Shown here: positions 2,690 through 28,822 of the stretch, piece by piece
How the letters are laid out: each line of letters opens with the position of its first letter
How positions within the stretch are numbered: position 1 is the first letter of the stretch
Assembly (NCBI RefSeq): GCF_001425205.1
Contig: NZ_LMDW01000012.1
Coordinates: forward strand, 141,584-205,583
Direction: 5' to 3'
Source of the DNA: Variovorax sp. Root411
Lineage (GTDB): Bacteria > Pseudomonadota > Gammaproteobacteria > Burkholderiales > Burkholderiaceae_C
Length of the DNA: 64,000 nt
Position numbers and translations under genes: made by a program
Notes under the pieces: model-generated
The model's database searches: none
Told to the model about the DNA's origin: nothing
Seen by the model: the letters and a program-made list of their open reading frames with translations, nothing else

Positions 2690-2737
2690 GCCGGCATTTT
2701 CCTGCATTTGGATCAACCCCAGATTTCGCGCATTGTT

Positions 2738-2848
2738 CCCTCTCCCTCCGGGAGAGGGCTAGGGTGAGGGCCGCGGCGCCTGGAAGCGTGCGATGCGATA
2801 AAGGCCGCCGGCCCTTATCCCAACCCTCTCCCGGAGGGAGAGGGGGCA
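2738..2848. repeat. REPIN-like doublet: two inverted REP hairpins between proA and holA
   Basis: Two copies of one REP-type unit face each other. The left unit (2738-2758) has an 8-bp stem, CCCTCTCC/GGAGAGGG. The right unit (2824-2844) has the same stem in opposite orientation. Each is flanked by the conserved arm CTAGGGTGAGGG or its complement TTATCCCAACCC. Paired, inverted REPs are the arrangement called REPIN. The right copy overlaps the 3' end of holA. A diverged doublet of the same design lies at 24267-24374. Confidence 0.85.
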
Positions 2849-3900
2849 AGAGCGCTGCTGCACGCGCGGCACAGCATCAGCGCGAGCCGCTGCAGGGCCT
2901 GCCAGCCACTGGCGGGCCAGTCGGGCTGCTTCAGGCCCTTCACGATGCCGTCCACCACGTGCGCCGCGCGCAGCAGCCGGGCCAGCATGCGGTCGTCCAG
3001 GCGCGGCAGCACGCGCTCGAAAGCGCGCTCGCGCGGGCCCCAGATGCGGTTCTCGCGCAGCGCCATCGGCAGCGGTCGGCCCGAGGCCATGGCGTCCTTC
3101 ACGCGCTTGAGCGCACGGATGTCCTCGGCGATCGTGTAGTGCACCAGCACCTCGGCTTCGCCCTCGGCCTGCAGGCCGTCGAGCATGCGCGCCACGCGCT
3201 GCGGGTTGCCGGCCAGCACGGCCTCGGAGAGCTTGAACACGTCGTAGCGCGCCACGTTGTTGACCGCGCCCTCGACCTGCTCCCAGCTCAATTCGCCGGC
3301 CGGGTGCAGCAGCGCGAGCTTCTGGATTTCCTGGTGCGCCGCCAGCAGGTTGCCCTCCACACGGTCGGCGAAGAACTGCAGCGTGCGCTGGCCCTCATCG
3401 CCGGGCATTACGCGCTGGCCCTGCTGGCCCAGGCGCTGCGCGATCCATTGCGGCAGCGCGTTGCGCTCGATCGGTTCGACCTGGATGCTCGCGCCGTTGT
3501 TCTCCAGCGCCGAGAACCAGGCGCCGGTGCGCGTGGCCTTGTCCAGCCGCGGCAGCATCACAAGCGTGAGCGTGCTGTCGTTGCCGGGCGCCGCCTCGGC
3601 CAGCTGCTGCAGCGCGGCGCTGCCGTCCTTGCCGGGCTTGCCCGAGGGAATGCGGATCTCGACGATCTGCTTGTCGGCGAACAGCGAGAGCGAGCCGCCC
3701 GCCGCGAGCACCGCGCTCCAGTCGAAGTGCGCGCCGGCCACGGTGTACGAGCTGCGCTCGGTGTAGCCCTGCGCGCGCGCGGCGGTGCGGACGGCGTCGG
3801 CCGCCTCCTGAGCGAGCAGCGGCTCGTCGCCGTGGATCGTGTAGAGCGGCTTCAGGCCCTTCTGCAGGTGGGCCCCGAGCTGGGCGCTGGCTAGTTGCAT
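2815..3900 (-). CDS. holA: DNA polymerase III subunit delta
   Basis: The delta subunit of the clamp loader opens the beta clamp during chromosomal replication. 361 aa, slightly longer than the usual roughly 340. The N-terminal GLKPLYTIHGDEPLLAQEAADAVR segment matches the delta AAA-like domain, and the C-terminal helical collar follows (residues about 210-345). The start is the ATG at 3900, 32 bp after the lptE stop; the leuS-lptE-holA order is conserved in Betaproteobacteria. The last residues, [11 protein letters not shown], are translated from the REP unit at 2818-2848, which also supplies the stop codon, so the C-terminus has been extended or replaced by repeat DNA. Confidence 0.93.
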   Translation of the reverse strand: MQLASAQLGAHLQKGLKPLYTIHGDEPLLAQEAADAVRTAARAQGYTERSSYTVAGAHFDWSAVLAAGGSLSLFADKQIVEIRIPSGKPGKDGSAALQQLAEAAPGNDSTLTLVMLPRLDKATRTGAWFSALENNGASIQVEPIERNALPQWIAQRLGQQGQRVMPGDEGQRTLQFFADRVEGNLLAAHQEIQKLALLHPAGELSWEQVEGAVNNVARYDVFKLSEAVLAGNPQRVARMLDGLQAEGEAEVLVHYTIAEDIRALKRVKDAMASGRPLPMALRENRIWGPRERAFERVLPRLDDRMLARLLRAAHVVDGIVKGLKQPDWPASGWQALQRLALMLCRACSSALAPSPSGRGLG

Positions 3901-13561: not shown

Positions 13562-15739
<2,178 letters not shown>

Positions 15740-15752
15740 CGTTGCTTGATTT

Positions 15753-16342
15753 GGTTTGCTTTCCGGGGCCGGGTCTCGGCCCGGCGGCCGACCTACTTTT
15801 CTTTGCTTCGCCAAAGAAACGTAGGCAAAAGAAAGGCGACCCTGCTGTCTGCGTCCCTGCCCCTGCGCTTCGCTTCGGGCAACCTGCGGTGCTCGACTAC
15901 GGAGGGGGTCCGCAGAACTCGCTTCGCTCAAACAGCTGCGGCCCTGATCCCTCCTACGTCTGCGCTCCTCGGCGCAGCCAGAAGGGCTTGGAAACCGAAC
16001 GCGCCATCGCTGCGCTCGGCCCCGGAACAGCCAATACCAACCACCGCAGGCGCTTCGCGCCTGCGGTGGCATGGTGGCCGAGCGAAGCAAAGGCCCGAAA
16101 GACTCCCCTCCCCTCTGGCTGCGCCGAGGAGCGGAGTGTTTCGCGGATCAGGGCTCGCCCTTGTTTGAGCGAAGCGAGTTTGGGCGAGACCCCGCGAAAC
16201 GCGAGCACCGCAGGTTGCCCCGTAGCGAAGCGAAGGGGTCGCAGACAGTGGGGTCGCCTTTCTTTTGCCTACGTTTCTTTGGCGAAGCAAAGAAAAGTAG
16301 GTCGCCTGTCGGGGCGAGACCCGACCCCGGAAAGCAAACACC
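15753..16342. repeat. Roughly 590-bp imperfect palindrome between glgB and glgX
   Basis: The whole glgB-glgX spacer is one long inverted repeat. The outer arms are nearly identical in complement: left 15753-15841 and right 16252-16342 share GGTTTGCTTTCCGGGG and CTTTGCTTCGCCAAAGAAAC as inverted copies. Inner segments also pair (GCTCCTCGGCGCAGCCAG at about 15963-15980 with its complement at 16115-16132; CTCGCTTCGCTCAAACA with its complement near 16169-16186). The centre is a perfect 13-bp hairpin, CCACCGCAGGCGC with a 3-base loop, at 16041-16069. The element contains no credible gene; open frames in it on both strands are by-products of the repeat. Confidence 0.88.
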
Positions 16343-16358
16343 TACCGAAGGCAGCAAC

Positions 16359-18413
<2,055 letters not shown>

Positions 18414-19810: not shown

Positions 19811-19905
19811 TTCGCCCCCAGTCTTCGCGCACTTCGTGTCGCTTCGCCAACCCCCTCGCCGGGGGCAATACCAGCGGCCCGGCAAAGCCGGTTCCGCGGT
19901 ATTCC
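19811..19905. repeat. Dispersed roughly 95-bp repeat, copy 1 (glgC-glgA spacer)
   Basis: Shares long blocks with 28729-28822 in opposite orientation, including GCGCACTTCGTGTCGCTTCG, GCCGGGGGCAATACC and GGCCCGGCAAAGCCGGTTCC. It starts three bases after the glgC stop. Internal short dyads (CCGGC-AAA-GCCGG) suggest folding in RNA. No coding potential is seen. It lies in the leader of glgA. Confidence 0.85.
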
Positions 19906-21475: not shown

Positions 21476-21699
21476 CGATCACGCCGACGGCGTGCTTCTT
21501 TTCTCGAATGTCCCCCGCCCTTCGGGCTCCTCCTTTATTTCGCGAAAAGAAGCCCACCGCCGACGTGATCGTTCAGAGCAGTCATTGATCGAGCGGAACA
21601 ACCGCAGCGCCAATCGTGCGCAGGGCACCGGGTGCTCCCCGCAGCGAAATAAAGGAGGAGCGAAGCGGGGGACATTCGCGGAGGGGAGCACCCGGTGGC
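21476..21699. repeat. Compound inverted-repeat element between glgA and glgP
   Basis: The 334-bp glgA-glgP spacer holds nested inverted repeats and no gene. The pair 21476-21506 / 21541-21571 (CGATCACGCCGACGGCGTGC and onward) matches with about five mismatches over 31 bp. The second pair, 21507-21543 / 21646-21678, carries AATGTCCCCCGC and CTCCTCCTTTATTTCGC in inverted orientation. The third pair is CACCGGGTGCTCCCC (about 21629-21643) with GGGAGCACCCGGTG (about 21683-21697). Such blocks are common between genes of this bacterial family. They may act on glgP mRNA structure or as an attenuator, but nothing proves it. Confidence 0.85.
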
Positions 21700-21766
21700 C
21701 TGTGCACGCGTCCCGAACGCACCCGAACGCCCCTGACAGCAAACCAAAACCCACCCGAGAACGCTC

Positions 21767-28728: not shown

Positions 28729-28822
28729 GAATACCGTGGAACCGGCTTTGCCGGGCCGCCGGTATTGCCCCCGGCAGGGGGGAGGCGAAGCGACACGAAG
28801 TGCGCGCAGCCTGGGGGCGAGC
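28729..28822. repeat. Dispersed roughly 95-bp repeat, copy 2 (ptsN-hprK spacer)
   Basis: Inverted copy of the element at 19811-19905, sharing GGAACCGGCTTTGCCGGGCC, GGTATTGCCCCCGGC and CGAAGCGACACGAAGTGCGC. It fills most of the 144-bp gap between ptsN and hprK and would be in their joint transcript. No gene is seen in it. Confidence 0.85.

Follow-up and report, generated by a model that had tools for sequence, protein, structure and literature searches.

The glgB and glgX genes of Variovorax sp. Root411, which encode the branching and debranching enzymes of glycogen metabolism, are co-directional and are separated by a spacer that is filled by a 586-bp near-palindrome (Table 1). The two outer arms, three pairs of inner blocks and a perfect central hairpin are all arranged around a single centre near position 16050 of the window, by which we mean the whole 64-kb stretch of DNA analysed. 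The preliminary description of a palindrome of roughly 590 bp at this position is therefore confirmed, although its term 'near-perfect' is slightly generous, as arm identity within this copy is 0.878.

Table 1. Features of the glgB–glgX region and other repeats of the window (window positions)
Feature	Position	Strand	Remarks
glgB (branching enzyme)	13562–15739	+	left neighbour
Left halo	15154–15753	+	G+T-rich on + strand, inside the glgB 3′ part; 0.69, 0.67, 0.69 in the first three 100-bp bins
Whole element	15754–16339		near-palindromic dispersed element, full-length copy
Left outer arm	15754–15872	+	119 nt, 88 % complementary to 16221–16339
Left terminal hairpin	15763–15785		approximate limits; a single fused hairpin of this kind remains in the deletion scars of other loci
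Arm core motif	15801–15819	+	19 bases; found widely in Betaproteobacteria
Inner block	15877–15895	+	paired with 16202–16220, 100 %
Inner block	15916–15934	+	paired with 16162–16180, 100 %
Inner block	15960–15986	+	paired with 16110–16136, 93 %
Central hairpin	16041–16069		perfect, 13 bp (16041–16053/16057–16069)
Right outer arm	16221–16339	−	119 nt
Arm core motif, inverted copy	16274–16292	−
Right halo	16340–16939	−	G+T-rich on − strand, inside the glgX 5′ part; 0.66, 0.62, 0.57 in the first three 100-bp bins
glgX (debranching enzyme)	16359–18413	+	right neighbour
Unrelated inverted repeat pair	19812–19904 and 28729–28820		about 8.8 kb apart; 54 nt at 93 %, 53 nt at 87 %
Imperfect hairpin	2733–2849		41-bp arms, REP-like in size
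Imperfect hairpin	21615–21708		34-bp arms, REP-like in size

A dispersed family of palindromic elements

When folded as RNA, the element is predicted to form one long hairpin of −473.6 kcal/mol, compared with a mean of −251 for shuffled sequences (z −31, with 0 of 100 shuffles as good). Three ORFs within it match no Pfam family, and the window returns no Rfam match at gathering threshold. The arm core occurs only at the two expected places in the window, even with 3 mismatches allowed (0.00 expected). Elsewhere in the same genome, further copies are located at C12:53002, C1:926838 and C1:973345 (contig:position), the last two being shortened to 419 and 440 bp, giving four full or shortened copies with that of the window; these are accompanied by fragments on contigs C20 and C2 and a lone terminal hairpin at C12:513175. 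Of 61 genomes taken as relatives, 38 match the element, comprising 33 of 37 from the genus and 5 of 24 from other families of the order, whilst in a search of 101 Variovorax genomes 92 match. The arm core is found more widely still amongst Betaproteobacteria, in at least Polaromonas, Silvimonas, Undibacterium, Herbaspirillum and others. No match was found in phages, arguing against a phage origin, whilst 13 plasmid records match, one of them over most of the query.

In total, 84 copies were read with their flanks: that of the window, 3 others from the same genome, 40 from relatives and 40 more from complete genomes, with two of the 84 being shortened. The first 44 of these, window included, fall into 16 flank pairings, most of which are shared between species, with some lying within operons and others between convergent genes (by heuristic gene calls). 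The preliminary description had made recurrence of the arms elsewhere a test of whether they belong to a repeat family, and this condition is satisfied. The site also differs between species, as 11 of 30 glg loci read have no element, one of these being visible on the glgX side only. Pairing maintained by compensating changes copy by copy is, however, not supported, as the two arms of one copy are no more alike (0.902) than arms taken from different copies (0.911; P=0.03 in the opposite direction), such that the palindrome is a property of the family pool rather than of compensation copy by copy. A classic transposition signature is likewise not supported. No target duplication could be recognised by eye at the glg junctions, where spacers are short and mutated, and a single match to PF01797 (Y1 transposase) is present in each of 13 genomes tested, including three without the element (G024, G026 and G036); in the three genomes where coordinates were compared (G000, G011 and G033), this gene lies far from the listed elements. 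Taken together, the interpretation offered in the preliminary description is partly supported: the arms form a dispersed repeat family and the odd codon use at the end of glgB and the start of glgX is linked to the element, but the latter is not a one-off disturbance caused by insertion.

A strand-specific G+T halo beside the element

Inspection of the element ends revealed that DNA outside the palindrome is G+T-rich toward it on both sides. In 44 copies (88 flanks), the strand reading 5′ to 3′ into the element is 0.71 G+T at 0–25 bp and 0.50–0.51 beyond 800 bp; approaching the element, C falls from 0.34 to 0.18, T rises from 0.16 to 0.35 and A falls from 0.15 to 0.11. In all 84 copies, 167 of 168 flanks have more G+T at 0–200 than at 1000–1800 bp, with the mean decaying exponentially from 0.70 at the edge to 0.51 with a length of 270 bp (s.e. 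23). As copies fall into about a dozen shared sites, these flanks are not independent. At the sites studied, the effect is a graded substitution halo that reaches about 600–700 bp into both genes. Amongst centres tried every 50 bp with a 600-bp core, the element centre has the highest symmetric G+T score of the window, at 0.292 against a mean of 0.000 (sd 0.056). Outside Variovorax, flanks of the arm core show the same gradient, from 0.639 at 0–50 bp (76 flanks) to about 0.50 beyond 600 bp, although only 22 of 87 core matches had an inverted partner by a strict test, and thus not all are proven palindromes.

The halo is independent of the direction of the flanking gene, as the 21 flanks in which a gene 5′ end faces the element and the 37 in which a 3′ end does so (58 of 88 flanks, labelled by heuristic gene calls) show similar profiles. 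With regard to replication, origin-proximal and distal sides are equal at 0–150 bp (0.664 and 0.662; P=0.95) and 150–300 bp (P=0.49) in 56 copies on chromosomes with a located dnaA and the terminus assumed opposite. At 300–600 bp the proximal side is higher by 0.024 (P=0.002), or by 0.017 after subtraction of far background (P=0.17).

The four other repeats of the window (Table 1) show no two-sided halo, although the hairpin with 34-bp arms has 0.72 G+T on one side within 100 bp. The glgX–glgC junction (30 loci) shows no raised G+T on its left side (0.478 at 0–100 bp), but 0.603 in the first 100 bp on its right and 0.529 at 100–200 bp, indicating that the first 100 bp at a gene 5′ end is weak evidence alone. 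Two element fragments in the window's own genome (L020 and L021) show only a faint or irregular halo.

Comparison of orthologous sites demonstrates that the halo depends on the element. glgX was found in 61 of 61 genomes of the genus sample, and the 30 best-scoring loci, hence those nearest the window, were read. Of these, 18 have the element (4 cut by contig ends), 10 have an empty spacer of 7–19 bp, and one (L111) shows no element sequence in the 54 bp visible upstream of glgX and is counted as lacking it for glgX only. The remaining locus, L107, has an 85-bp spacer with one fused terminal hairpin. The first 150 bp of glgX average 0.637 with the element (n=18) and 0.519 without (n=11), with ranges that do not overlap (P=9e-6), whilst the last 150 bp of glgB average 0.670 (n=14) and 0.533 (n=10), respectively (P=4.5e-5). 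At third codon positions of the first 50 alignment columns, into-strand T is 0.264 with and 0.045 without the element, C is 0.201 and 0.395, and A is 0.030 and 0.107. Where the element has shrunk to one hairpin, as in L107, the halo is retained (0.673 and 0.713). At livM–livG, 8 loci with the element or part of it average 0.648 in the last 150 bp of livM, 19 without average 0.498, and two scar loci (L238 and L241) have 0.65 and 0.63; one of the 30 loci had no livM. The livG side is weak (0.577 versus 0.548 in the first 150 bp, reversed at 150–300 bp, with the two scars counted as lacking the element and one locus omitted for lack of upstream sequence). In several species (loci L237–L243) a further CCCTCTCCC-type short repeat lies between the element and livG, and may distance livG from the halo. 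Two further sites agree in the first 150 bp: mdt, with 0.562 (21 with) against 0.479 (9 without), and gnt, with 0.677 (15) against 0.582 (14, one locus being omitted for lack of upstream sequence), where loci 'with' include partial elements. The lone, near-perfect terminal hairpin at C12:513175 (L016:1441–1600), the flank of which resembles that of locus L084, is a probable deletion scar in the window's own genome, but displays G+T excess only within 100 bp.

Substitutions in the flanks and likeness of copies

On a tree of distal glgX, locus L108, which carries the element, lies among the empty sisters L106 and L116. Polarised against both, L108 has 94 derived changes within 600 bp, compared with 35 for L116 and 36 or 45 for L106, depending on the outgroup. 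On the into-element strand of L108, C is changed at 54 of 381 sites (C>T 27, C>G 19, C>A 8) and G at 22 of 424 (P=2e-5), whilst in L116 the same comparison gives 6 of 334 against 18 of 421. Adenine is only weakly asymmetric (A>G 8, T>C 4, of 160 sites each). The density near the element is about four times that farther out (94/1125 versus 33/1608), with L116 having 41 changes in 1613 sites beyond 600 bp. Of 50 changed codons in glgX codons 1–200, 15 alter the amino acid. A tree of the near region keeps L108 inside the same large clade of mostly empty loci, grouped with element-bearing L104 and empty L119 at modest support. Its 66 derived glgX alleles are shared with L104 at 30, with other element carriers at 20–30 and with empty loci at 9–20, which suggests convergence under one process; by genome, 30 are shared with G018 and 29 with the distant G000. 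The element of L108, although apparently recent, may thus be older than its branch, and in situ mutation, convergence and local import are not fully separable. The copy in a further genome, G101, considered for close comparison, lies at another site. In 8 pairs of occupied orthologues, divergence is 0.160 at 0–100 bp, 0.111 at 100–200 bp and 0.05–0.08 farther out, whereas 5 empty glg pairs have 0.060 at 0–100 bp and 0.03–0.09 farther out, with no rise toward the junction.

Amongst 42 copies of at least 530 bp, whole-element identity is 0.943 for different sites in one genome (94 pairs), 0.919 for the same site in different genomes (63 pairs) and 0.917 where both site and genome differ (704 pairs), in a comparison that ignores gaps and phylogeny. 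The element keeps almost no memory of its site, as expected if copies overwrite each other. In genome G020, two copies (L060 and L066) have outer flanks that are exchanged relative to G025 (pairings 9–12 and 10–11, against 9–10 and 11–12, both present in G025), suggesting recombination between copies, although G020 is a 20-contig draft and misassembly is not excluded.

Origin of the halo and comparison with known systems

The explanation we consider more likely than not is that the element is a non-coding, dispersed, long near-palindrome that behaves as a chronic recombination and mutation hotspot. In this view, it is extruded as a hairpin or cruciform and repeatedly broken or opened, with the 5′ strands on both sides resected to leave 3′-ended single strands that reach a few hundred bases into the neighbouring genes. 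Bases on these exposed strands, cytosine above all, would be damaged and bypassed by error-prone synthesis, giving C>T, C>G and C>A on the strand that reads into the element. Repair from other copies in the same genome would homogenise the element and may occasionally rearrange the chromosome, whilst misrepair between the two terminal hairpins would delete it, leaving one hairpin as a scar and the halo in place. The family, the halo and its dependence on the element, its strand and base specificity in one polarised case, the scars, and the greater likeness of copies within than between genomes are shown by our analysis; that exposure arises from two-sided breakage and resection, the damage and bypass chemistry, and gene conversion as the cause of the likeness are inferred from sequence alone, no break having been observed, as would be any attenuating role in transcription of glgXCA. 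SbcD, the nuclease that cuts palindromes in E. coli, is over its family cut-off in only 2 of 101 Variovorax genomes, and thus another nuclease, or one of the weaker, mostly partial SbcD-like matches seen in 55 more genomes, would be needed; in the control set 5 of 13 ringing genomes are also below the cut-off, meaning that SbcD-like enzymes are not excluded. The two genomes over the cut-off, G026 and G080, have 0 and 1 weak element match, respectively. Scarce SbcD may explain why long palindromes survive here, but two possibly related genomes are weak evidence. RecB family matches over the cut-off were found only in G024 and G036 of 13 Variovorax genomes tested, both lacking the element, with the others showing only weaker helicase matches; these are too few to interpret. 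PMC1193525 provides only general frequencies of recombination genes.

The main alternative, which we regard as possible but rather unlikely, is that the polymerase stalls at a hairpin on either template and leaves an unreplicated stretch 5′ of it, this gap being the mutated single strand. Such a model predicts the same strands on both sides and requires no break, and lack of SbcCD would let hairpins persist. However, if hairpins form mainly on the lagging template the origin-proximal side should be stronger, which is not so within 300 bp, and the likeness of copies within genomes needs an extra explanation; this likeness and the symmetry of the halo favour two-ended breaks. It is very unlikely that selection for G+T-rich, Chi-like or recombinase-favoured sequence beside a fragile palindrome, such that breaks are repaired efficiently, is responsible. 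Chi is read on the 3′-ended strand, and into-strand heptamers such as GCTGGTG are strongly biased near elements (83 versus 3), but no single motif, including any Chi-like octamer, stands out after Markov correction, and both the general rise in substitutions in L108, including C>G and C>A, and its amino acid changes look like damage rather than choice.

Two further readings of the halo are highly improbable. Stalling of RNA polymerase with deamination of the non-template strand would fit flanks whose gene reads into the element, but the 21 flanks labelled as gene 5′ ends, of which the right flank of the window's own element is an example, have the same halo on the template strand. Insertion into DNA already G+T-rich in this pattern draws some support from the gnt loci without the element, which are themselves somewhat G+T-rich, and from the fact that empty orthologous sites are known only from other species. 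Nevertheless, loci without the element at glg, livM and mdt lack the pattern, it remains at scars, and no closely related empty site with a full halo and no scar was seen at glg or livM. The suggestion of the preliminary description that the element acts as an RNA-level attenuator of the glg operon, or the alternative that it acts as a stabiliser, is unlikely, but could be true in addition to the favoured explanation: the predicted RNA hairpin would be extremely stable and lies between co-directional glg genes, yet other copies lie beside unrelated genes, some convergent, only short terminator-like matches were detected (3 found, 1.1 expected, sd 1.3), and such a role does not explain the halo.

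With regard to known systems, inverted repeats in yeast raise mutation rates in genes on both sides, an effect that needs end resection and translesion synthesis (Saini et al. 2013, PMC3681665); those repeats are engineered and act over up to 8 kb in reporter strains, whilst the present ones are natural and bacterial, decay over about 270 bp and are seen as an evolutionary record, with breakage inferred. Human meiotic break hotspots show strand-asymmetric C>N and A>N substitutions on the strand left 3′-ended on each side of the break, reported as C>N and A>N on the forward strand (PMC7615360), but these are programmed SPO11 breaks in a germline, whereas here no dedicated nuclease is known and the site is itself a repeat element. 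REP/BIME elements with RAYT transposases (PMC3733652, PMC2817692) are similarly intergenic, palindromic, dispersed and built of hairpins, although REPs are 20–40 bp and occur in high copy, whilst this element is about 590 bp, is present in few copies and showed no RAYT association in the genomes tested. MITEs and Correia-type elements are non-coding with inverted terminal arms and no enzyme of their own; the present element is palindromic to the centre, shows no recognised target duplication, is lost to a single terminal hairpin and carries a mutational halo. Within open-licence literature, no title or abstract opening describing this element or such a halo in bacteria was found.

If the favoured explanation is right, ordinary genome sequence holds a readable record of where bacterial DNA is chronically single-stranded or broken, with a strand and base signature like that of human meiotic breaks. 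This would allow break processing, resection length and error-prone repair to be studied by sequence alone in many species, with the scarcity of canonical SbcD offering a direct genetic test, and would show that a non-coding repeat can set the local mutation rate and codon use of operon genes. It also explains odd gene ends that might be mistaken for horizontal transfer. A bolder and more tentative possibility is that of a bacterial counterpart to eukaryotic recombination hotspots: a selfish, enzyme-free repeat that survives by being fragile, breaks, is rebuilt from sister copies elsewhere in the genome (drive by gene conversion) and, as a by-product, imposes a lasting, directional mutation field on adjoining genes across the Betaproteobacteria. 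Paraburkholderia plasmid records (H3–H6 and H10–H12 of those matched) contain at least some 37 to 40 arm-like places per 2-Mb replicon, hinting at a much denser relative of this family.
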